A DNA stretch of 64,000 nucleotides, taken from NCBI RefSeq assembly GCF_011516925.1, contig NZ_WOTG01000001.1:124001-188000 (forward strand), in the 5' to 3' direction. The notes beneath the pieces were generated by a model, which was not told where the DNA came from, ran no database searches, and saw nothing but the letters and a program-made list of their open reading frames with translations. Both the position numbers and the translations under genes were made by a program. Source of the DNA: Acetobacter fabarum. GTDB lineage: Bacteria > Pseudomonadota > Alphaproteobacteria > Acetobacterales > Acetobacteraceae. Below are positions 10,061-61,782 of this stretch, piece after piece. How positions within the stretch are numbered: the stretch's first letter is position 1; the number at the start of each line of letters is the position of its first letter.

Positions 10061-10146
10061 TGGTGCGGTCGAGAAGACTCGAACTTCCACGAGGTTTCCC
10101 CCACAAGCACCTCAAGCTTGCGCGTCTACCATTCCGCCACGACCGC
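10061..10146 (-). tRNA. tRNA-Leu(GAG)
   Basis: 86 nt including an encoded CCA end. The acceptor arm pairs GCGGTCG with CGACCGC. The anticodon stem CAAGC/GCTTG encloses the loop TTGAGGT, giving anticodon GAG, which reads CUC and CUU leucine codons. The T-loop is TTCGAGT, and the long variable arm is as expected for a class II leucine tRNA. It is on the minus strand between galU and lipB. No integrase or att-like duplication was noticed next to its 3' end. Confidence 0.97.
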
Positions 10147-42834: not shown

Positions 42835-43635
42835 ATGCGACTTGTGACATGGAACATCAATTCCCTCCGCCTGCGTATGCCGCTGCTGGAAAAACTGACC
42901 ACCGCCTTGCAACCAGACGTTGTCTGCCTGCAGGAAACAAAGGTGACAGACGAACTTTTCCCGCATGAGAGCGTGCGTGCCCTTGGGTTTGAACACCTGC
43001 ACTACAAGGGCATGAAGGGGTATAACGGCGTGGCCATTCTCTCACGCCTGCCGCTCAGCCCGGTTGTGGACACGCCAACATGGTACGCTCAGGAAGACTG
43101 CCGCCATGTTGCTGCCACCGTTCATGCACCGGGGGGGGACATCACTCTGCATGATTTTTACGTCCCCGCAGGCGGGGATGAACCGGACCCGGAAACCAAC
43201 CCAAAGTTTGCCCACAAGCTTGCCTTTGTGGACGAAGCCACACAGTGGTTTGCTCAGCAAAAACCAGCCCGTACGGTGCTGGTAGGCGACCTGAACATTG
43301 CCCCCCTTGAGCATGATGTGTGGAGCCACAAGCAACTGCTGAAAATTGTCAGCCACACACCACCGGAAACCCAGCGCCTGACCCAATGGCAGCAGACCGG
43401 CTTTGTGGATGCCATGCGCCGCTTTGTACCCCCCACCGACAAGCTGTACACATGGTGGTCTTACCGTAACAAGGACTGGCGCAAGTCCAACCGGGGCCGC
43501 AGGCTGGACCACATATGGGTCACCCCCGATCTGGTGCCGGAACTGGCCAGCATGTCCGTGCTGGAAGAGGCCAGAGACTGGCCATCCCCCTCCGACCATG
43601 TGCCTGTGGTCATGGACATTCACCCTCAATCCTGA
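42835..43635 (+). CDS. xthA: Exodeoxyribonuclease III (XthA)
   Basis: 266-residue AP endonuclease of the EEP fold: start RLVTWNINSLRLR, the metal-binding LQETKVTD (Glu about 34), YNGVAILSR, GDLNIAPLEHDVW and the C-terminal RLDHIWVT and SDHVPVVMDI. It cuts at abasic sites and trims 3' ends in base excision repair. I start at the ATG 42835; an upstream in-frame ATG at 42736 would add 33 residues without homology. Confidence 0.95.
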   Translation: MRLVTWNINSLRLRMPLLEKLTTALQPDVVCLQETKVTDELFPHESVRALGFEHLHYKGMKGYNGVAILSRLPLSPVVDTPTWYAQEDCRHVAATVHAPGGDITLHDFYVPAGGDEPDPETNPKFAHKLAFVDEATQWFAQQKPARTVLVGDLNIAPLEHDVWSHKQLLKIVSHTPPETQRLTQWQQTGFVDAMRRFVPPTDKLYTWWSYRNKDWRKSNRGRRLDHIWVTPDLVPELASMSVLEEARDWPSPSDHVPVVMDIHPQS

Positions 43636-43956
43636 ACAAAAGCAGGCTCAGGGGGCTATTATATTCATGCCCTCTTAGTGCTCGCACGATGCGCCTGCCC
43701 GCCGCCCGACCAAGGCCGCCTGCCGGTTCTGAAGAACCGGCAGGGGGTCTGCCTGTACCAACCTTGGCGGCATGCAATGCACGCGTAAAAAACAGCGCAA
43801 CACACGCGAGTAAACACATGCGCAAGGGGCCGATAAGCTGACCAAGAACCATGCACGGCAAGCATAAATTTAAATTGTGCGGCAATGTCGTTTTATGCCA
43901 GAAGTGCCACTATTATTTTACAAACAGGCAACTTCTTTCACTCAAAAAAGGTCGCG
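43636..43956. other. Gene-free region between xthA and the A/T-rich methyltransferase, with a hairpin
   Basis: 321 bp. The strongest element is a near-perfect palindrome at 43719-43744 (cctgccggttct / agaaccggcagg, 2-nt loop) not followed by T. An outer pair ccaagg (43710-43715) / ccttgg (about 43763-43768) could extend it with bulges into a structured RNA or DNA element. Base composition shifts from GC-rich to A/T-rich near 43860. No convincing gene is seen; a minus-strand frame with a hydrophobic start overlaps the end of xthA and was rejected. Confidence 0.6.
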
Positions 43957-44646
43957 ATGTCTATTTTTGATAATAGAGGCATTCTATGCCATATATATAA
44001 AAAATTATTACATAAATACTACTCAAATGACCTATGGATAGATTTGAAAATAAATGCAAAGAAGGAAACTGTAGATTACATATTAAATAATATGGGTCGT
44101 GCCATTATCTCCAAAGACCGTTACTCTTTGCTAAAATACGCTTTCCAACATGCCGACAAAGAAGGACTAATACTTGAATTTGGCGTCGAAAAAGGGGCCT
44201 CAATCAATTACTTAGCCTCCCTTACCCAGCAGACGGTCCACGGGTTCGATTCTTTTGAAGGCCTCCCGACCGACTGGAAAGGCACGATGGAAACAAAAGG
44301 AGCGTTCGATATGAACAAGGCTCCCCCCAAAGTGCGCCCTAATGTTCAGCTCCACATTGGCTGGTTTGATGACGTTATTCCTGTTTTTCTAAAACAGACA
44401 GACAACAGCATAGCCTATATGCATGTTGATTGTGACACGTACGAATCAACAAAAATCCTGCTGGATCTAACCAAAGACAGAATAAAAACCGGAACCGTAA
44501 TAGTATTCGATGAATATTTTAACTACCCCGGATGGAAAGAAAACGAATTCAAGGCTTTTCAGGAATTTGTTGCCGACACAAAAATAAAATACGAATACAT
44601 CGGCTTTTCATCAGAAAAAGGGCACGTCGCGGTCAGGATCATTTAA
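43957..44646 (+). CDS. TylF/MycF-like class I methyltransferase, probably acquired
   Basis: 229 residues. The core reads LILEFGVEKGASINYLA (SAM-binding region, about 71-87), FDSFEGLPTDWKG (about 96-108) and YMHVDCDTYESTKILL then IVFDEYFNYPGW, the pattern of the TylF/MycF macrocin O-methyltransferase family; the acidic pair and Asp residues would bind metal. The target may be a sugar or secondary metabolite, but no such cluster is nearby. It is strongly A/T-rich (13 of the 60 bases at 43981-44040 are G or C) unlike its neighbours, a sign of transfer. An in-frame ATG at 43885 is possible. Confidence 0.75.
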   Translation: MSIFDNRGILCHIYKKLLHKYYSNDLWIDLKINAKKETVDYILNNMGRAIISKDRYSLLKYAFQHADKEGLILEFGVEKGASINYLASLTQQTVHGFDSFEGLPTDWKGTMETKGAFDMNKAPPKVRPNVQLHIGWFDDVIPVFLKQTDNSIAYMHVDCDTYESTKILLDLTKDRIKTGTVIVFDEYFNYPGWKENEFKAFQEFVADTKIKYEYIGFSSEKGHVAVRII

Positions 44647-44703
44647 GATCCGGGCCTATTCCACGCGACTGCATACATTCGCTCGCTGCCTTTAAAAGCC
44701 TAT

Positions 44704-44750
44704 CGTCACTCACAACAGTCCCCCTTGCAGAGCCCGCCTTGTGAGTGACG
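44704..44750. repeat. Perfect 12-bp inverted repeat with a 23-nt loop
   Basis: cgtcactcacaa (44704-44715) and ttgtgagtgacg (44739-44750) are exact reverse complements in the gap between the A/T-rich methyltransferase and the end of tamB. No T-run follows, so it is not a classic terminator; it may be a transcript-end hairpin for the two converging genes, an operator, or a mobile-element trace. Confidence 0.7.
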
Positions 44751-44829
44751 CATACTTTGCTGCCTGAAAACGCTCCGGCGCAGCCAATACAGCCCCGCCA
44801 GAGGCCCCATGGGCCGCAAATACCCCCAC

Positions 44830-47800
44830 CTAGTAGCGATACTGCCAGACCAGCCCCACACTGCTCCCCGGGTCGTTTTCGGGCGTAGTAAAGCCCGTTA
44901 CGGAGCCACCCGTGCCTACCGTGGTGTTGAGCTTAAGATGGTTTGTCAGGTCCACCTGCACCTGCGCCTGCGTGCCGGAGCCAGAGGTCGCCTGCTTGGC
45001 ACCTACGTAAACACCTTTCATGACATATTTGCCGGCCTCCACGCTGGTACCACCATTACCAACGCCTGAACCGCCGCCAACGGCCAGCCTGTCCAGATGT
45101 AGGGTTTTACGCAAGGTGCCCATGGGGTCAAAGGTGGTCAGCCCGGTCAGGGTTGCCAGCGCCGTGCCCACCTCCACCATCTGGGTGGAAGAAAGCGAGC
45201 GGGCATCCGTACCAAACAGCAGCATGGCCAGCACCTGATCCTGCGGCAGGGAGGGTATGGAATCAAAGCTGATCTTGGGAGCGCTGGCATAGCCCCCTAC
45301 CTTCAGCATGGCTGTCTGGCCTTCCACCGCCCGGTCGGCTTCAAAATCAAGCGTTGGGTCAAGCTTGTGTCCAACGCCCGAACCATTAAAGCCGACCCGG
45401 CCCTTGGTGAAGTTGAGCGAGATCCCCGCCAGATCAAAATTACCGCGCTTGAGGTCAAACCCACCGGTTACAACGGGGGCCTGTGCCGTGCCCGTTACAT
45501 TCAGGCGGCCTGCCATTTCCGCATCCAGCCCGTGCCCGCGCACAAAAAACTTGCCCGGAGATGTCAGCTTAAGGTCCAGCCCGATAACCGACTGGTGCGT
45601 GGAGGCGGCCATGGCTTCCTCCACCCGCTTTTTTTCCTCGCCGGGGCGTATGATGTCCAGGCGCGCGACAGAGGCCGGGAGCGAATTGGGAATATTGATT
45701 TCCACGCGCCGCAGATCGACCCCACCGCTCACATCCATGCGGGTTTGTACCTGCCCGCGCACGGTTATGTCGGCATTGAGCACCGCAGTCAGCAGGTCAC
45801 TTGTAACCGGGCGTGCGTCCTTGGCAAACAGATGCAGGTCTATGGGCATGCCCGGCATGGCAACACCCACAAAGCCATTTGCACCCAATGTGCCATCCCC
45901 TGCTTTTGCGCTGAGTGTCTGAATAACAATGCGGTCCCGCGCCCCGACCACACGACCGTTAATGGCGCTCAGATGGAACCCCTGCGCAAAATCCTGAAAA
46001 TCTGCATTAATCAGGTCAACCGCCCCCATAATGGCGGGAGAGGCCGGCGTGCCACGCACCTGCAGGGCCAGCTGCACCTTGCCCTGCGCCTGCCGGGCCT
46101 GCGCGCCAAGTATGCCGTTGCCGATGCTCAGGTCCAGATTGCCATTGGCCCGCAAATCCAGCGGCCCCGTTTTGGACAGGGGCGCACTGCCACGCACCTG
46201 CAGGCCCATTTTGCTTCCGGCAGATGCATCAAGCTGCACCTGTGCCTGCGTGCGGGCAAAAGTGGCCGTACCCTCCACCTCCATTGCAGGAACGGAGGCC
46301 GCAGCAGAACTATCTGCCATACGCAGGTTGCTGCCCCTGACCTGCACCTTGCCTTCTGGCTTATCCAGCGCGCCAGAGAGTTTGGCGTTCAGAGACACCA
46401 CACCCGTGGCGTTCAGGTCCGGCATAAACGGGTGTGCCAGTGCCGGGGTTACATTGCGAATATCCGCCGTAACCGACAGGCTGGGCTTTATCCGCCCGGC
46501 CACATCCAGCGTAGCAGGCTGGCTACCCGGCGTGGTCAGTACCGCTCGCAGGCGGTCGATTCCCAGCGTATCCCCAAACGAGACAAGCACAGGCGCTTGC
46601 AGGCGCAGGGTTTCCTGCTTTGCCGTGGCGTTCAGCTTCTGGAGTTTAAGCTGTTTGTCCGGCAGATTCAGCACAGCCTGTGTGTTCAGCATCAGGGGGC
46701 TGTTCATCCAGCTAGCAGGCCCCACCTGCGCGGCCAGCACCATGCCTGTATCCGGCCCTTTTGCACTCAGCTGCGCCTGCCCGCTTACCCCGGCGGCGGC
46801 CAGCCCGCCAAGGCGCAGGGTCAGGTCTGGCGTGGGATGAGCAACCGGGTCGGTTATGGAACCCGCCAGCGCAATCGACCCCACCTTGAATGTGGGGGTC
46901 TGCACATTCCCCTTGAGCTTGAGGGCCACAACCGGCTTGTCCTCGGCAGTGGTGGTATTGACCGATGCGGCCAGTGAGCCCGCTATTTTCTGGCCAACCA
47001 GAGGGCTGTAATCCGCCAGCCGGCCAATTGTCAGGTCCAGGTTCCCCTGTGGCACCACCTCTTTAGGGGCAAGTGTAAGCGCGCCTTCCCCTTTGGTGCT
47101 GTTCCAGGCCAGTTTTTGCAGGTCAAGGTGGCGCGTGCCATCGGCTGCCTGCCCAAATGCCACAGCCAGCTGCGCGGGCGCGCGGTCCAGCGTGCCCTCC
47201 AGAGCAAGTGTGCCCTGAGGAGCCACTGGCAGGTGGGCAACCGAGGCATCCAGCGCCAAAGCTCCCTTGGGCATTGAGGCAGTACCCAGATTGGCCTTTG
47301 CCCCCAATGTGGCAACAAAGTCCTGCAATGGCCCCTTGAGGGCGAGCACAATACTGGTATCCCCCCGCAAGGTAGGGGCCAGTTTTTCCAGCGCGGGCAG
47401 GCCGATATTGGCCGTTATATCCACATTGCGGCCAGTCTGCACATGGCCCTGCACCTTGGCGTCCAGCGCCTGCCCCGACAGGGTGAGCGAGGACAGGTCA
47501 ATCTGCTGCCCGGCAGCCATACCCGCCTGCGCTGGCAACGGGTGCATGGCTGCGGCAAGGGCCAAATGCCCATCCGGGCCAATAAGCCCGGCAGCCTGCG
47601 CCTGCCCGCCCGTTATGGCCAGTTGGCCGCCGGTCGCCAGATGTGTCTCGCCCTGCGGGTCGCGGGAGCGGTCAAACTGGGCATTCAGGCTTGCATGCCC
47701 GCGCAGAGGCACGCCTGCAGCCTCCCCCACGGGGAGCAGGTCAGGCACGTTCAGGCTGAGTGTGCCACGCTGTGGTGCTGCTGCCTGCAAAGAACCCGAC

Positions 47801-49068
47801 AGGGCAATAACAGGATGTTCAAGGGTAAAGACCACCGGCAACCCCGGCACGGCTGGCTTGGCCACAACATCCAGCTTGAGCGGGGCTGCCGCCAGCAATG
47901 TGGGCGCTTTACCCGGCAGGCGCAGCCCATCGGCCGTGAGCATCAGGTGGAGTTGTTCGGCCAGTGCAGCAGCATTACCGCCTTCCCCCGCAAAGCGGAC
48001 ACGCAGAGTACCCACCTGCACGCCAGAAGCGGCAAGCTGGTCCACATCCAGTTGCGCCGTGCCATGGGGAGCCGCCATTTTGCCATTCAGCCGGGCAGCA
48101 AGGCGCACGGCCTGCCACCCGATCTCGGACGTAAGAGAAAGCTGGGGTGACTGGGCCGAAACCTCCAGCTGGGCCATTTGCTGCGCAAGCAGGTCCAGCG
48201 TACCACGTGCCTGCGCGCTTACTGCTCCGGCGGAGGCCGAAAACGCCAGAGTATTGGCCGTAACCGGCCCCTGCATATCCAGCTTGAGCGCTATGGGGGT
48301 CAGTTGCGGCATGCCCAGCTGGGTTGCCACAAACCCACCATTTGCGCCTTCGCTCGCATTCAGGTGCAGGGCCAGCTTGCCCCTCCCCGTTGCCGTGGAC
48401 AGGCTGATCTGCCCGGTCTGGTCCAGCCGTGTAACCTGTATGGCAATGTCGGAACGGGGGAGTTTTGGCAGGCTCAGCCCGTTAATAACCGGGTCAATAT
48501 TGGCAAGCTTGCCATGCCCACTCACCCGGAAACTGGCTGCCTGCCCGGCAAGGGGCGCGCCCACATTAATCTGCCCGACCTCCAGCTTGCGAATATCCAC
48601 CCCCATACGCAGGGCAGAAGGGGAGGACGAGGTCGGCTGGGCAGGCTGTGGAGTTGGGTCGGACACAGGCAGGCGCGGAATATCCAGCACACTTGCACTA
48701 AACACATAAATGCGGGCCTGCCGCCACACCATGGCCATGGGCGACCAGTCAAACCGCACGTCATGCAGTGTTAGCCACGCTCCCTGCCGGTCATGGATCG
48801 CCAGCGTTTTAACACGCAGGTTATCGGGAAAACGGCCAGACAGCCCATCCAGCGTAACCATGCCCCCGGTCAGGGATGCGGTCTGGCGCACCAGCATCCG
48901 CCGCCCCGGCCCCGTATTGGCACCTATGAGCAGAACGGTTGTCGCCAATGCGCCAATACCAGCCAGCGAGCCTGCGGTTATCAGCGCAAAACGGCCTGCG
49001 CGCCGCCACAGGCTGCGCGGTGGTGGAGGTGTGGGTGCGTTCGGGGGGGCGGGTGTGGCTTCTGGCAT
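44830..49068 (-). CDS. tamB: Translocation and assembly module protein TamB
   Basis: 1412 residues. A proline-rich cytoplasmic start (1-20) is followed by one membrane segment (about 26-49) and a very long beta-rich periplasmic region of repeating AsmA-like strands. The C-terminal 350 residues form the conserved TamB (DUF490) domain, with FDLKRGNFDLAGISLNFTKGRVGFNG and the ending VGLVWQYRY, a strand expected to pair with TamA. With TamA it bridges inner and outer membranes for protein or lipid traffic. Its ATG overlaps the tamA stop by one base (TGATG). Confidence 0.92.
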   Translation of the reverse strand: MPEATPAPPNAPTPPPPRSLWRRAGRFALITAGSLAGIGALATTVLLIGANTGPGRRMLVRQTASLTGGMVTLDGLSGRFPDNLRVKTLAIHDRQGAWLTLHDVRFDWSPMAMVWRQARIYVFSASVLDIPRLPVSDPTPQPAQPTSSSPSALRMGVDIRKLEVGQINVGAPLAGQAASFRVSGHGKLANIDPVINGLSLPKLPRSDIAIQVTRLDQTGQISLSTATGRGKLALHLNASEGANGGFVATQLGMPQLTPIALKLDMQGPVTANTLAFSASAGAVSAQARGTLDLLAQQMAQLEVSAQSPQLSLTSEIGWQAVRLAARLNGKMAAPHGTAQLDVDQLAASGVQVGTLRVRFAGEGGNAAALAEQLHLMLTADGLRLPGKAPTLLAAAPLKLDVVAKPAVPGLPVVFTLEHPVIALSGSLQAAAPQRGTLSLNVPDLLPVGEAAGVPLRGHASLNAQFDRSRDPQGETHLATGGQLAITGGQAQAAGLIGPDGHLALAAAMHPLPAQAGMAAGQQIDLSSLTLSGQALDAKVQGHVQTGRNVDITANIGLPALEKLAPTLRGDTSIVLALKGPLQDFVATLGAKANLGTASMPKGALALDASVAHLPVAPQGTLALEGTLDRAPAQLAVAFGQAADGTRHLDLQKLAWNSTKGEGALTLAPKEVVPQGNLDLTIGRLADYSPLVGQKIAGSLAASVNTTTAEDKPVVALKLKGNVQTPTFKVGSIALAGSITDPVAHPTPDLTLRLGGLAAAGVSGQAQLSAKGPDTGMVLAAQVGPASWMNSPLMLNTQAVLNLPDKQLKLQKLNATAKQETLRLQAPVLVSFGDTLGIDRLRAVLTTPGSQPATLDVAGRIKPSLSVTADIRNVTPALAHPFMPDLNATGVVSLNAKLSGALDKPEGKVQVRGSNLRMADSSAAASVPAMEVEGTATFARTQAQVQLDASAGSKMGLQVRGSAPLSKTGPLDLRANGNLDLSIGNGILGAQARQAQGKVQLALQVRGTPASPAIMGAVDLINADFQDFAQGFHLSAINGRVVGARDRIVIQTLSAKAGDGTLGANGFVGVAMPGMPIDLHLFAKDARPVTSDLLTAVLNADITVRGQVQTRMDVSGGVDLRRVEINIPNSLPASVARLDIIRPGEEKKRVEEAMAASTHQSVIGLDLKLTSPGKFFVRGHGLDAEMAGRLNVTGTAQAPVVTGGFDLKRGNFDLAGISLNFTKGRVGFNGSGVGHKLDPTLDFEADRAVEGQTAMLKVGGYASAPKISFDSIPSLPQDQVLAMLLFGTDARSLSSTQMVEVGTALATLTGLTTFDPMGTLRKTLHLDRLAVGGGSGVGNGGTSVEAGKYVMKGVYVGAKQATSGSGTQAQVQVDLTNHLKLNTTVGTGGSVTGFTTPENDPGSSVGLVWQYRY

Positions 49069-51005
49069 CAGAATGTTTCCCCCAGCCCGATGTACAAGTC
49101 CCACGAATCCCCACGTGGCGCACGGTTAAGCGGCACGGCCACATCCAGCCGGACCGGACCAATAGGCGTGTAATACCGCACACCACCACCAGCACCCACA
49201 CGCAGGGTTCCGGTAAAGGGCATGCTGTTGCTCCCCACCTGCCCGGCATCCGCAAAAGCGGCCAGCCCAAAGCTCTTGAACAGGCGCTGCCTGTATTCCA
49301 CCGTTCCCGCATCCAGCGAGGTGCCACCAATGGCATATTTGGTGTGGCCATATTGCGGCCCAACGCCCTGCCAGCGATAACCACGCACCGTAGCACTCCC
49401 CCCCGCGTACATGCGCTGGTCAGGCGGAATGTCCCACGTGCCTGCACCCTGAATACTGCCAATAGTTCCACGGAACGCCAGAATACTCCGCCCCGGGCGG
49501 CTTATACCCAGCTTGTGCAGGTCCACGTAAGTGGAGGCTGTTGCATTCATGATTGTAAAGAACGATGTACCCGCCTCCTTGCTCCCCAGAGAGACCGAGG
49601 GGGTCACGTTAATGCTCGCACGCACGCCATGTGTTGCGGGCTCTATGGGGTTGCCCACCCCGGTATTGTCATACATGCCTGAAAGCGGTGCCGAGAGAAT
49701 GGTATAACTGCGCGAAACGCCGAACTGCTCAATTCTTTCCTGCTCTGCGGCCAGGCCAAAATTGCCGTTCCAGTTCTTGGCCAGCGGGCGGGTTATGCCC
49801 CCGCGCAACAGCAATGCCGTCTGCCGGTAGGACCAGAAGAGCTGCCGCAGGCCTTCTATGCGGGCATTCAGGTTCTGTTTGCTTTCCAGAAAGTCAGGTT
49901 TGAAAAAATCTGCATACACATCATACCCCAGCCCCTGCTGGGCAGACCCGCCAAGGCCGGTGATCAGGGCTGTCAGGCGCAGGCGCTCGGCATTGCCGAG
50001 CAGGTTGTTGTGGGTCCACATGGCCCCCACGCGGGCGCCAAGGTCCGTGGAGTACCCGAGTTCTGCCCCAATGGAGTGGCGCTTGCCTTCCTGAAAGGAA
50101 AAATCCAGCGGCATGGTGCCATTAACCGCCTTGTTGGAGGCATCCCTGACCGTAACATTGGAAAAAACACCCAAGGTGGTCAGGTCCTGCCGTGCGGCTT
50201 CTATGCGGGATGGCTGGTACAGCTCCCCTTCATGCACGGTCAGCCGCCTGCGCACGAACGACTGATGCACCCGCTTGAGTCCTTCCAGGTTGATCCTGCC
50301 AATATCCAGTATGGGACCGGGAACAACAGGGTACACAATATCCACTGTTTTGGTGCCCGGGCGCAGGTAGGCCATGGGCTTGTCAACCTGTGCCAGTGCG
50401 TGCCCGCTCTCACGCAAAGCATCCATCAGGCGGCCACCTGCGGCCAGCACATCTGCGGCTATGGCAGGCTGGCCGGTATGCAGGCCAAACGCTTTTTGCT
50501 GTTCGGGGGTAAGTTGCGGGGCAACGCCAGTGGCACTTTCCACCAGCTTGACCGAACCAAGGTGGAAAAGCGGACCTTTATCAACCTTAACGGTAATATC
50601 CACCTTGTCATGCTCGGGCACGGTCCCAATCCATGATGCCAGAGCGTTGGACATCCCATCCATGGCAATGCCCTGCTTGCCATTGCGGAGCATGATATGC
50701 ACCGTGCTGTCGTAATACCCGCAGCTTTCCAGCGCGCCGCGCAGGCGGTCATATTCGTTGCGCACGCGCCCGGCCAGCGCAAACGGGCCAACCGCCCGCG
50801 TGGATTGCAGGCTTAACAGGTCGGACGAAGCCTTGAGCGCGGTATCCAGATCGCTCTGCCCGGTTGGGTCGAGGTTTGTCACATAGGGCTGTGGGTCTGC
50901 TGCCCGCGCGCCACATGTTAAAACGCTCCACAGCGCCGCTCCAGCCAGAAGCCGATTCGCGGTACCAGTAAACCTGCCAAGTATGTTGCGATTGTAAACG
51001 GCCAC
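49068..51005 (-). CDS. tamA: Outer membrane assembly protein TamA (BamA/Omp85 family)
   Basis: 645 residues. Signal peptide (hydrophobic stretch about 19-31, cleavage after ARA at 35), POTRA domains (about 40-300; e.g. VDITVKVDKGPLFHLGSVKL), and a C-terminal 16-strand barrel ending in the signature phenylalanine (DLYIGLGETF). GGSATVRGYRWQGVG is the conserved Omp85 RGY loop. I chose the GTG at 51005, with AGGACA just before it; longer upstream starts lack a signal sequence. Divergent from plsC. Confidence 0.92.
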   Translation of the reverse strand: MAVYNRNILGRFTGTANRLLAGAALWSVLTCGARAADPQPYVTNLDPTGQSDLDTALKASSDLLSLQSTRAVGPFALAGRVRNEYDRLRGALESCGYYDSTVHIMLRNGKQGIAMDGMSNALASWIGTVPEHDKVDITVKVDKGPLFHLGSVKLVESATGVAPQLTPEQQKAFGLHTGQPAIAADVLAAGGRLMDALRESGHALAQVDKPMAYLRPGTKTVDIVYPVVPGPILDIGRINLEGLKRVHQSFVRRRLTVHEGELYQPSRIEAARQDLTTLGVFSNVTVRDASNKAVNGTMPLDFSFQEGKRHSIGAELGYSTDLGARVGAMWTHNNLLGNAERLRLTALITGLGGSAQQGLGYDVYADFFKPDFLESKQNLNARIEGLRQLFWSYRQTALLLRGGITRPLAKNWNGNFGLAAEQERIEQFGVSRSYTILSAPLSGMYDNTGVGNPIEPATHGVRASINVTPSVSLGSKEAGTSFFTIMNATASTYVDLHKLGISRPGRSILAFRGTIGSIQGAGTWDIPPDQRMYAGGSATVRGYRWQGVGPQYGHTKYAIGGTSLDAGTVEYRQRLFKSFGLAAFADAGQVGSNSMPFTGTLRVGAGGGVRYYTPIGPVRLDVAVPLNRAPRGDSWDLYIGLGETF

Positions 51006-57234: not shown

Positions 57235-60200
57235 ATGACGGTTCGTTTTGTTCGCCTCCGCATTGTGGGGTTCAAAAGCTTTGCCGACCCCATAACCGTG
57301 GAACTGCTCCCCGGTCTGACCGGCGTTGTTGGCCCTAACGGATGCGGCAAATCCAACGTGGTGGAAGCACTCCGTTGGGTTATGGGGGAATCCTCCGCCC
57401 GCTCCCTGCGTGGGGGGGAAATGGATGACCTTATTTTTGCAGGCACAGCCGGGCGTCCGGCCCGCTCGCTGGCGGAAGTCACCGTAACGCTGGAAGGCAC
57501 AAAGGGCTTTGGCCCCGCAGCCTTTGCCGATCTGGATGAACTCCAGATTACCCGCCGGGCAGAACGCGGTGCCGGGAGCGATTACCGCATTAACGGCCGC
57601 CCCGTTCGCGCAAGGGATGTACAGACCCTGTTTGCCGATCTGGCATCTGGTGCGCGCTCCTCCGCCATGGTCAGTCAGGGCCGGGTGGCCATGCTGGTCG
57701 GTGCCCGCCCGGAAGAGCGGCGCAGCATTCTGGAAGAAGCCGCAGGCATTACCGGCCTGCATGCCCGCCGGCACGAAGCCGAGATCAAGCTCCGCGCAAC
57801 CGAAGGCAACCTGACCCGCGCGGAAGACCGCCGTGTGCAGTTGACCGAACGGCTGAGTGGTCTGGCCGAACAGTCGCGCGAGGCCACGCGCTACCGCGAA
57901 ATTTCAGCGGCCCTGCGGGACGCGGAAACCGAGCTGCTGGCAGTCCTGCACGCACGGGCCAGACTGGCCGTGGAGCGCGCGGCAAATGCCGCCGTGCAGG
58001 CCCGCAAAACCCTGACGACACATGAAGAAGCGGCCGAAACCGCTGTTCTGGCCGAATTTGAAGCCACCAAAGCCCTCCCCGCGCTGCGTGAGAAAGCCGA
58101 TGCCGCCCGCACGGCACTGGAACGCTGCCGTGTTCTGGCAGAAGGCGTGGTCAAGGAAGAAGAACGCGCAGCCGCTCAGGCGCAAGCCGCAGCCGAACTG
58201 CTGCAACAGCACGAGGCCGATGCACAGGCCGCACAGACCCGCCTGCAGGACGTGCTGGACACGCTCGAACGCCTTAAGGCGGATATGGCCGAAGTGCTGA
58301 CCGCCCAGACATCGCTCCCCACCCGCACGGCCGAGGCCGAGCAGCAGATACAACAACTGGGCACCCAGCAGACCGAAACCGAACAGGCCCTTGCCAGCCT
58401 GACAGCCGAGCTGAGTGCAGCCCGCGCAGGCAAGGAACGGGCCGAAGACAGCCTGAACAACGCCCGCACACGGCACGAGCGGGTTGCCCTCGCACTCAAC
58501 ACCATTCAGGCTGAACTGGCGGAACTGGAAAGCCAGCTTCCCTCCGAGCAGGCACTGGCTACGGCGCAGGAGCAGGCAGAGCAGGCCGCACAGGCCCAGC
58601 AGGCAGCCAAAGCCGCGCAGGAGGAAGCCGAGCGCCTTTGTGCGCAATGCAATATTGACCTCTCCATTGCCAAAAATAATGCACAGGCTGCACAGGCCGC
58701 TCAAAACGAGCAACAAAAAGCCCTGCAACAGGCCCGACAACGCCTGACAGCCCTGCAGGCTGAACTGCATGGGGCCGAAAAGCGCCATGCCGAAGCGCTG
58801 GAGGCGCTCATCAGCCCCGATGTGCTGGATGCGCTCCAAACCAGCACCCAGCAAGCAGCCGCCACGCTGGAACAGGCCACGCAAACGCAGGAAAAAGCCG
58901 AGGCCGAACGCCGCGCCGCCAGCACCGCCTTTACCGAGGCCAGTCGCGCTGCGCAGGAGGCCGAAGCACACCAGCGCAGTGCTGCCGAAGCCCTGCGCAC
59001 GGCCAGCACCACGCAGCAACGCGCACAGCACGAAGCACAGACCCTTACGCGGGAACTGGACAAGGTGCGGGCCGAAGCCATTGCTGACACGGTTCTGGAC
59101 AGCGCCCGACAGGCACGCACCCAGCAGGAAAATGCGCTGGCCCAGACCGGGGCCGAGCTGGAGCAGGCCGAACACACGCTAAGTGTGCATAAGGCCCAGT
59201 ACGCAACAGCCCAGGAGCAGCAGACCACACTCCAGACCGAACTGACCCGCCTGCAGGCACAGGCCGAAGGGCTGGATCAGGCTCTGGGGCAGGATAGTGC
59301 TGTGGCGGAAAACCCGGTTTCCGCCCAGATTACCGTTCCCGAAGAATACGAAAACGCTCTGGCTGCCGCTTTGGCGGAAGGGCTGGACGCACCCGCAGCC
59401 CCCGATGCCCCCCAAGGCTGGCGGCACCTCCCGCCTGAATCCCTGCCTGCCCTGCCCGGCGGCGCACAGCCGCTCAAAAACCACATTACAGCACCGCCGG
59501 AGCTGGACAGGGTCCTGCTTTGTACCGGGCTGCTGCCCGAAGGTGCGGATGGGCGAGCGCTTCAGCCCTTGCTGGCTCCGGGGCAATGTCTGGTCTCCAC
59601 CGCAGGGGATCTATGGCGGTGGGACGGGTTTTACACTCAGGCAGGGGGAACCAGCACGGCCGCGCGCAGGCTGGCCCAACGCCGTGTTCTGCGCGAAACC
59701 CAAAGCCGTCTGAGCGTGCTGCAGGCCGACCTGCCCGCCATACAGGCAAGCGTTGCAAGCTGTGCTGCCGCAGTACAGGCCAATGAAGACCTGCTCAGGC
59801 AACTGCGCAGCAGCCGCAACACGCAGGAACAAGCACTCCAGAAGGCCCGCGCGCATGAGACCGAAACAGAGCGCCGCCATGCCTCCTACCGCGCAAGGCT
59901 GGATGCCACACTCCCCCAGCATGAGCGCGCACAGGCTGCTCTAGCCGAAGCCGAGACCACACTCAGCAATGCCCGGCTCGCGCATGAGAGCCTGCCATCC
60001 TTACAGGATACCCAGCGTGCCCTCGCCACCACGCGTGAGAGAAACACCGCAGCACAAACCGCCGAGCAGCAGGCGCATGCTGCCTTCAAACAGGCACAGG
60101 CGGCCCTGCAAACGGCCCGGGACAAACTAGCCCGCGCCGAACAGCAGCATGCCTCCGCCACAACGCGGCTGGAAACGCTCACCCCCGAGCTTGAACGCCT

Positions 60201-61782
60201 GCGCCATAATCTGGCAACGGAATCCACAACTGTTGCAGAAATGGAAGATAAACTGGCCTCTGCCCAGTCCATGCAGCAGGCCCAGAATGCCCTGCACGCA
60301 GCACAGGAAAAGCTGAACGCCGCCAACACAGCCCTACAGGCTGCAACCCAGACCACCTTGCAGGCCGATGCGCAGATGGCCGCAACTGCGCAGACCAGCC
60401 GTGCATTGCACGAGCAGGCCCTTACCCTGCGCAGCCGTCTGGCGGGGCTGGCCCCACGGCAGGCCGAACTGCACAGCGAACACACAGACACCCAGCAGAA
60501 CCTGCTTGCAGCACAAGCCGCGCTGGAAGCCGCCTGCGCCGCAGTGCCAGAAGATGCACAGGCCAGACTGGACAACCTGCACGCCCAGAAAACCGACCTG
60601 CTGGGCAAGCTTGATGCCGCGCGCGAACTCCGTGCAGCCCTGCAGGCCGAATCCACCACGCTGGCAGACCGGATTAACACGCTCAACACCGCACAGGCCG
60701 AGTGGAGCGCGCGTGAGGGCCTTGCCCGGACAGACACCACAAATGCCCTCCAGCGGTTGGAAGCGGCGCGGGCCAACCACAACAAGGTGGCCGAACTCCC
60801 CACGGCGGCACAACAGCAAAAAGCCAGCACATTGGCGGCACTGGAAGATGCCGAGGAACACTTTGCCCAGACCGACCGCCTACGGGCCGAAGCCGAAGCA
60901 GCCCTGACCACTGCCCACGAACTGCGCCGCAAAACAGAAGGCGAACTGGCCACCGCGCGTGAAAACCAGCTGAAGGCGGAAGGCAAGAGCGAACAGGCTC
61001 AGGCCATTCTGGACCAGTTGCTGGTGGAAACCCCTAACCCGCCCAGACAACCCGTTTCCGACCTGACAGAAGGGGCCGAAACCTCCCTGCGCCGCAAGAT
61101 TGCCCGCCTGACCCGCGAGCGGGACGATATGGGGCCGGTCAACCTGCGGGCGGAACTGGAAGCGGAGGAAGCCTCCACCCAGGCCCAGACCCTTGGGGCG
61201 GAAATGAGTGATCTGGAGGAAGCCATAAACCGCCTGCGCGGCTCCATAGGCTCGCTTAACAAGGAAGGGCGTGAGCGGCTTATGGCGGTGTTCACACAGG
61301 TAGACCAGCATTTTCAGTCCCTGTTTACCCGTATGTTTGGCGGTGGGCGCGCCCATCTGGGCCTTGTCGGGAGCGATGACCCGCTGGAAGCCGGGCTGGA
61401 AATCTATGCCCAGCCACCGGGCAAAAAGCTGGCCACACTTTCGCTCCTGTCCGGAGGTGAACAAGCTTTAACCGCGCTTTCCTTGATTTTTGCGGTGTTC
61501 CGCTGTAACCCTGCTCCGATATGCGTACTGGACGAAGTGGATGCCCCACTGGATGACGCCAATGTGGGCCGCTTTAGCGCCCTGCTGGGCGACATGGTTG
61601 CAGAAGCCGGTACGCGTTTTCTGGTCGTGACACACCACCAGCTCACCATGGCCCATATGGACCAGCTTTTTGGTGTAACCATGCAGGAACGCGGAGTAAG
61701 CCGCGTTCTTTCTGTTGATCTGGCTAAAGCGGCCTCTATGGTCGGTCAGAAGGACAAGGAACCCACTGATGTCACATCCTGA
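57235..61782 (+). CDS. smc: Chromosome segregation ATPase Smc, with unusually long arms
   Basis: 1515 residues, against about 1150-1190 for usual bacterial Smc. N-terminal Walker A GPNGCGKS (33-40); C-terminal signature LLSGGEQ (about 1403-1409) and Walker B CVLDEVDAPLDD (about 1427-1438) are intact, so the ATPase head is complete. The hinge (about 695-800, beginning ITVPEEYENALAAALAEG and ending GDLWRWDGFYTQ) is compact. The two coiled-coil arms (about 175-690 and 800-1330) are rich in Ala, Gln and Glu. Its last codons overlap the next gene by 14 bp. scpA and scpB are not in the window. Confidence 0.95.
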   Translation: MTVRFVRLRIVGFKSFADPITVELLPGLTGVVGPNGCGKSNVVEALRWVMGESSARSLRGGEMDDLIFAGTAGRPARSLAEVTVTLEGTKGFGPAAFADLDELQITRRAERGAGSDYRINGRPVRARDVQTLFADLASGARSSAMVSQGRVAMLVGARPEERRSILEEAAGITGLHARRHEAEIKLRATEGNLTRAEDRRVQLTERLSGLAEQSREATRYREISAALRDAETELLAVLHARARLAVERAANAAVQARKTLTTHEEAAETAVLAEFEATKALPALREKADAARTALERCRVLAEGVVKEEERAAAQAQAAAELLQQHEADAQAAQTRLQDVLDTLERLKADMAEVLTAQTSLPTRTAEAEQQIQQLGTQQTETEQALASLTAELSAARAGKERAEDSLNNARTRHERVALALNTIQAELAELESQLPSEQALATAQEQAEQAAQAQQAAKAAQEEAERLCAQCNIDLSIAKNNAQAAQAAQNEQQKALQQARQRLTALQAELHGAEKRHAEALEALISPDVLDALQTSTQQAAATLEQATQTQEKAEAERRAASTAFTEASRAAQEAEAHQRSAAEALRTASTTQQRAQHEAQTLTRELDKVRAEAIADTVLDSARQARTQQENALAQTGAELEQAEHTLSVHKAQYATAQEQQTTLQTELTRLQAQAEGLDQALGQDSAVAENPVSAQITVPEEYENALAAALAEGLDAPAAPDAPQGWRHLPPESLPALPGGAQPLKNHITAPPELDRVLLCTGLLPEGADGRALQPLLAPGQCLVSTAGDLWRWDGFYTQAGGTSTAARRLAQRRVLRETQSRLSVLQADLPAIQASVASCAAAVQANEDLLRQLRSSRNTQEQALQKARAHETETERRHASYRARLDATLPQHERAQAALAEAETTLSNARLAHESLPSLQDTQRALATTRERNTAAQTAEQQAHAAFKQAQAALQTARDKLARAEQQHASATTRLETLTPELERLRHNLATESTTVAEMEDKLASAQSMQQAQNALHAAQEKLNAANTALQAATQTTLQADAQMAATAQTSRALHEQALTLRSRLAGLAPRQAELHSEHTDTQQNLLAAQAALEAACAAVPEDAQARLDNLHAQKTDLLGKLDAARELRAALQAESTTLADRINTLNTAQAEWSAREGLARTDTTNALQRLEAARANHNKVAELPTAAQQQKASTLAALEDAEEHFAQTDRLRAEAEAALTTAHELRRKTEGELATARENQLKAEGKSEQAQAILDQLLVETPNPPRQPVSDLTEGAETSLRRKIARLTRERDDMGPVNLRAELEAEEASTQAQTLGAEMSDLEEAINRLRGSIGSLNKEGRERLMAVFTQVDQHFQSLFTRMFGGGRAHLGLVGSDDPLEAGLEIYAQPPGKKLATLSLLSGGEQALTALSLIFAVFRCNPAPICVLDEVDAPLDDANVGRFSALLGDMVAEAGTRFLVVTHHQLTMAHMDQLFGVTMQERGVSRVLSVDLAKAASMVGQKDKEPTDVTS

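Follow-up and report, generated by a model that had tools for sequence, protein, structure and literature searches.

The question raised by this locus is how a single A/T-rich gene related to TylF methyltransferases came to stand between two core genes, xthA and tamB, and what its product does. The locus lies within a 64-kb stretch of DNA that was analysed as a whole and is called here the window. The explanation that we favour, with a probability of roughly 0.55 for the whole of it, is that a gene for a soluble TylF-type sugar O-methyltransferase was gained as about 1.2 kb of DNA between xthA and tamB. No report on this gene or on the xthA-tamB junction was found in the open-licence literature. 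The features on which the argument draws are collected in Table 1.

Table 1. Features of the xthA-tamB junction (positions in the window) and of a second insert at the same junction in genome G006
Feature	Coordinates	Strand	Remarks
xthA-like exonuclease III gene (Exo_endo_phos), left core gene	42838..43635	+	
Whole insert, stop to stop	43636..44829		1194 bp; about 58 bp in the nearest relative, G046
Hairpin downstream of xthA	43713..43750		18-nt arms, 89%
A/T-rich leader of the methyltransferase gene	43861..43956	+	G+C 0.375; RBS-like AAGG motif right before the ATG
TylF/MycF-like SAM-dependent O-methyltransferase gene	43957..44646	+	229 aa; G+C 0.394; GC3 0.43
Inverted repeat, tamB side	44704..44750		12-nt arms, 100%; 23-nt spacer
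tamB (TamB), right core gene	44830..49104	-	Convergent with xthA and the methyltransferase gene
G006 insert, three genes	L081:1684-6112		A/T-rich
G006 insert gene: LPG_synthase_TM protein			336 aa scanned; G+C 0.52-0.53
G006 insert gene: FAD amine-oxidase-type protein			436 aa; G+C 0.52-0.53
G006 insert gene: 556-aa protein			No Pfam match; looks membrane-bound by eye; G+C 0.39; GC3 0.43

The composition of the gene sets it apart from the rest of the window. The G+C contrast reported in the first-pass annotation, 13 of 60 at 43981-44040 against 39 of 60 at 43081-43140, is exact in its counts, and the region is indeed the lowest in G+C of the window: the poorest 690-bp stretch starts at 43911 (266/690), the poorest 60-bp stretch lies inside the gene, and the lowest value for 690 bp outside the region is 49%, compared with 39.4% for the gene. 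The G+C content of the gene (0.394) is more than five standard deviations under the window mean, the rest of the window standing at 0.601. A check of codon composition, proposed in the same annotation, agrees with this, GC3 being 0.43 in the methyltransferase gene (G+C 0.39) versus 0.68-0.71 in xthA, tamB and uvrC (G+C 0.58-0.63). The A/T richness does not extend to the intergenic flanks of the gene (G+C 0.59 and 0.60), apart from the 96 bp that precede the start codon (0.375). We place this start codon at 43957, because many homologues open with M[SA]I[FL] there and AAGG precedes this position; an alternative in-frame ATG at 43885 is less likely. The gene is thus present where it had been announced, at 43860-44660, but is narrower than that span (43957-44646), and it does stand alone between two core genes, with Exo_endo_phos and TamB matches on either side. 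Elsewhere in the window, a very strong A-over-T skew was observed at 58001-61000 (0.36-0.47 in five of six 500-bp steps), which overlies a long + strand ORF of 1515 aa (57235-61782).

A close copy of the methyltransferase gene is absent from all 48 other genomes of the genus, and the whole 1194-bp stretch has no match in these 48 genomes either. Three of them (G011, G041 and G044) contain any protein match at all, at 27-28% identity; in a set of 194 relatives, own genome excluded, 36 have some protein match at E <= 1e-5. The left core gene xthA is present in 48 of the 49 genus genomes, own included, and missing from G041, which is 68% complete. A convergent tamB was found within the stretch read in 29 of the 48 xthA-bearing genomes, and the gap between the two genes is 15-435 bp in 27 of these 29, versus 1194 bp in the window genome and 4429 bp in G006. 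Among the remaining 19, the contig ends in three (G025, G047 and G020) and tamB does not appear within about 5-6 kb after xthA in 16. In G025 xthA itself breaks off at the end of contig C188 (L040:2203-2250), in a sequence resembling a sequencing-library adapter, so that an artefact of assembly is the probable cause of this contig end. Outside the genus, tamB was not found in the xthA flanks (up to 1.5 kb, E <= 1e-6) of the 30 loci read out of 69 xthA-bearing genomes, which suggests that xthA and tamB are neighbours in only some members of the genus.

In the nearest relative, G046 (94.9% nucleotide identity), the junction is empty and measures 56-58 bp. The 64-kb window was aligned to G046, G006, G014 and G017 (94.9, 86.0, 82.1 and 81.1% identity), and each of the four alignments contains one length difference of at least 300 bp, always between xthA and tamB: the spacing is 1180-1213 bp in the window versus 56 bp in G046, 4440 bp in G006, about 0 in G014 and 49 bp in G017. 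An empty site in a close relative and an atypical composition, both of which are expected of a horizontally acquired stretch, are found here together. Since all 48 other genomes of the genus in addition lack a close copy, horizontal gain of the stretch, as first proposed, is well supported. Vertical conservation of the gene at this place across the genus, which had been named as the contrary case, was looked for in the 48 other genomes and not seen.

The insert does not resemble a classical mobile island, with its integrase, transposase, tRNA target and flanking direct repeats. Neither a transposase, as had been stated before, nor an integrase was seen by eye in the ORF list of 43636-44829. 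There is no tRNA target at the insert, the only tRNA of the window being located at 10061-10146, and the one direct repeat nearby (15 nt, 87%, at 43690 and 44963, the latter within tamB) is likely a matter of chance. No recombination scar or target duplication can be defined at the insert. Structured inverted repeats had been described on both sides, and both exist; the left one (43713-43750) folds better than shuffles on the + strand (z -3.2), and the right one (44704-44750) does so on the - strand (z -3.5) and hardly on the + strand (z -1.45). They were considered as mobile-element ends and rejected as such: because neither recurs in the genome and a transposase was not seen, we read them as 3'-end hairpins, the left one probably as a 3'-end structure and the right one probably as that of the tamB transcript. 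An Rfam scan gave just two matches, both far under the gathering scores, and a scan for promoters and terminators stayed near chance (2 versus 2.1 expected; 3 versus 1.6). As no integrase was seen, the stretch of about 1.2 kb probably entered between the convergent xthA and tamB by recombination within these two core genes, after the split from the nearest sequenced relative. A close donor was not found in evenly drawn genomes of the family, class and phylum, the best identity to any homologue being 57%. Plasmid relatives (27 records, including Azospirillum and Rhizobium) are all below 60%, with 46% as the best one listed, and a near-DNA search of window positions 40000-64000 in plasmids gave no match. 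The genome_contigs search returned one relative, from Prochlorococcus (47%).

The protein itself belongs to the TylF-like family, as had been proposed. It matches Pfam TylF (PF05711; 40.9 bits versus a cut-off of 23, E 1.8e-10, residues 44-210) and Methyltransf_24 (46.8 bits versus 26.3, E 6e-12), both above cut-off; an NCBIfam search assigned it to no family. Searched against solved structures, the sequence comes closest to CalS11 (whole protein 1.1e-5, best single stretch 0.0033), then to NovP (0.0036), SpnH entries (0.008) and MycF (0.26), all of them weak matches. ETV6 fusion proteins also appeared among the structure matches; they score via repeated weak stretches and were dropped as chance. 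The structure model was built from an alignment of four rows, two of which look identical, and is mediocre, with a mean pLDDT of 69.7 and a pTM of 0.74, residues 1-38 and 101-117 being unreliable. Foldseek with this model ranked CalS11, MycF, SpnH and NovP best (E 3.6e-9 to 3.3e-7 for ranks 1-20, TM about 0.5-0.6), and the fold Z against these sugar enzymes is 15.0-16.8. Catechol-type (COMT-type) O-methyltransferases follow closely, with Z up to 15.2, and for this reason the fold alone cannot fix the acceptor.

In the TylF family, acidic residues of two C-terminal motifs bind metal. D158, D160, D185 and E186 are present in the window protein and each shared by 97% or more of 34 relatives, and D160 aligns with Asp191 of CalS11 (manual count on the sequence alignment to CalS11). 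Asp191 is given as the putative catalytic base in an excerpt of PMC4760980, and a metal role of such residues is described for MycE/ThnM1 in an excerpt of PMC9275233. In the alignment of the 35-row close clade, the window protein keeps 82 of the 92 positions that are at least 97% conserved in the other 34 rows and changes 10. None of the four acidic residues is among the changed ones; near the motifs, I161T adjoins D160, and K194 and N196 come closely after the FDE motif.

Taken together with the sequence matches, these residues suggest a soluble SAM-dependent O-methyltransferase of the TylF/MycF/NovP/CalS11 type, probably Mg2+-dependent. It would transfer one methyl group from SAM to a sugar hydroxyl, either on a nucleotide sugar or on a finished glycan. 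A sugar hydroxyl is the most likely acceptor, and the surface glycan or nucleotide-sugar precursor that carries it would be made by other genes of the genome. For the sugar, our best guess is a deoxyhexose, for example rhamnose. RmlD-type genes gave 10 matches in the own genome, nine of them over the cut-off; the model also matches 14 of 14 control genomes, and this profile was discarded as too broad to be a sign of rhamnose (dTDP-rhamnose) synthesis.

Homologues were then compared in an even draw of 397 genomes of the family, own included, counting as near full-length those of at least 250 bits. Such a homologue occurs in 36 of the 396 other genomes, at 51-57% identity, distributed over genera g171 (12), g68 (11), g16 (5), g57 (4), g167 (2), g24 (1) and g13 (1); the G504 homologue is an additional copy, split in two pieces. 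We read 25 homologue loci, 23 from these 36 genomes and two from other families (G178 and G792). Where the neighbours are recognisable, the homologous methyltransferase is a single gene amid core-looking genes. Since the homologues in the 23 family loci likewise stand alone, and do so with a G+C content near that of their surroundings, a solitary gene is the usual state in this subfamily and cannot by itself count as a sign of transfer. The earlier argument, that an orphan copy points to a transferred tailoring gene, is for this reason unsupported in that form. The orphan genes of the seven genera resemble the window gene in being single and alike over almost their full length, but their sites differ from that of the window: pepF-ABC1-methyltransferase-pntAA in g68, pepF-ABC1-methyltransferase in g171 and amidotransferase-methyltransferase-FAH-xthA in g16 (names partly by eye). 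The g16 order raised the idea of a link between the methyltransferase and xthA, which we treat as coincidence because xthA matches just four of 47 loci (L069, L164, L165 and L201) and because the endonuclease/exonuclease-type gene (named by eye) that comes after the methyltransferase in G792 (L166) matches its own locus alone of the 47. Homologues in glycan clusters, also proposed for search, were met with in one distant case, L072 (G068, 45%), where the gene shares a patch of raised A/T content with genes for Glyco_transf_25 and UDP-galactopyranose mutase; the close relatives read stand outside glycan clusters. At two other loci, from two genera (L079:7521-9592 and L076:7265-9360), the gene for a TylF-like methyltransferase is paired with one for an F5/8 type C protein, the two being richer in A/T.

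These neighbourhoods bear on the nature of the acceptor. An ABC1 kinase gene adjoins the homologue in 15 of the 25 loci, nine of g68 and six of g171 (L068, L147-L152, L154, L156, L158-L163), and a pntAA-like gene is near it in nine, all of g68 (all neighbour names were given by eye, except ABC1 and SLT). This, and the closeness in fold of COMT-type enzymes, would suit an enzyme of the same fold acting on a non-glycan acceptor, such as a small molecule, a lipid or a quinone-type compound linked to membrane or redox metabolism. We consider this unlikely, as the sequence matches point to sugar O-methyltransferases and the 15 ABC1 loci come from two genera only, so that they may reflect plain inherited gene order. 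Moreover, the ABC1 gene is present in 48 of the 49 genomes of the window genus, and the three loci read there (G000, G046 and G024) keep pepF and ABC1 adjacent with no methyltransferase or pntAA match within 8-9 kb. It is possible that the window genus lost an ancestral copy beside ABC1 and regained one elsewhere.

An old family gene, relocated, kept only here and lost in the sampled congeners, with an A/T richness produced by drift, is an improbable source. It could account for the repeated occurrence of copies within certain other genera and for a quick tree of 82 rows, which places the window protein inside a clade of 35 rows from the same family (SH-aLRT 98). The branch of the protein in this tree is long (0.75) and its residue make-up unusual; the tree carries a composition warning, and the exact place of the protein in it is unsure. 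Against an old family gene, it would have to be lost in all 48 other congeners, among them the relative at 95% identity, whose site is cleanly empty. Also, all 25 homologues read lie 0.002-0.071 (mean 0.035) below their surroundings in G+C, versus 0.21 for the window gene.

Somewhat less probable again is a recent passenger, without useful expression or substrate and in the course of being lost. Its occurrence in a single one of the 49 genus genomes, a promoter scan that gave nothing above chance nearby and the lack of adjoining partner genes would all be consistent with it, but the frame is open over 229 codons and most of the conserved positions, with the four acidic residues among them, are kept. 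A leftover of a prophage or a phage-borne methyltransferase is very improbable: relatives occur in 110 phage records (108 from Mycobacterium), the match touching the end of a portal gene in eight of the 20 listed, and two short viral contigs encode seemingly the same protein at 42%, but all 110 are below 60% and the 20 listed are at 34-37%, versus up to 57% in the family homologues, and the ORF list of the insert showed no gene of phage type.

The junction carries an insert in another genome as well. In G006 (86% nucleotide identity to the window) a different A/T-rich insert of three genes lies between xthA and tamB, and its gene for the 556-aa protein equals the window gene in G+C and GC3. 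Relatives of this 556-aa protein (39-43%) are encoded elsewhere in G046, G031 and G006 itself (three of 49 genus genomes), and none was found in the plasmid search; the FAD protein has plasmid relatives of up to 46.5%. That the G006 insert may once have included the window gene was considered and rejected: blastn-short matches between the two inserts reach at most 15 nt (E 0.41 or worse), no more than chance would give. The 64 kb contain about 50 junctions, about 10 of them convergent as counted by a rough gene prediction in which xthA, at least, was misassigned. On this count we estimate that two inserts would coincide at one junction with a chance between about 1 in 10 and 1 in 50, which suggests, without proving it, an integrase-less hot spot of insertion. 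The G006 set could be a surface-glycan cassette. A broader proposal, tentative and in our view rather doubtful, is that the clade swaps A/T-rich genes that alter surface glycans at this integrase-less spot by recombination in the core flanks, like phage serotype-conversion loci. The junction may be the larger point of this study: at one and the same position, two species that are related to each other have A/T-rich inserts that are not, and no other length difference of at least 300 bp separates them in the 64 kb compared.

If, as in the preferred reading of a gained sugar O-methyltransferase, the enzyme O-methylates a surface sugar, one gained gene could alter recognition by phages, insects, plants or microbes. 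The gene looks like a small, horizontally gained change in surface chemistry of a known kind. Its product shares with MycF, NovP and SpnH (PF05711) the TylF profile match and the fold; a difference is that neither macrolide nor aminocoumarin genes were seen next to its gene. The first 63 of the 264 profile positions of PF05711 are unmatched in the window protein, and other members of this family carry DD where it has FDE. With CalS11, a TDP-rhamnose 3'-O-methyltransferase (PDB 3tos, 4gf5, 5hoq), the likeness extends to the DxD and FDE stretches, which align, and to the predicted fold (Z 16.3-16.4, at 22-23% identity). CalS11 is presented, in the excerpt of PMC4760980, as part of calicheamicin biosynthesis, whereas the window gene stands alone.
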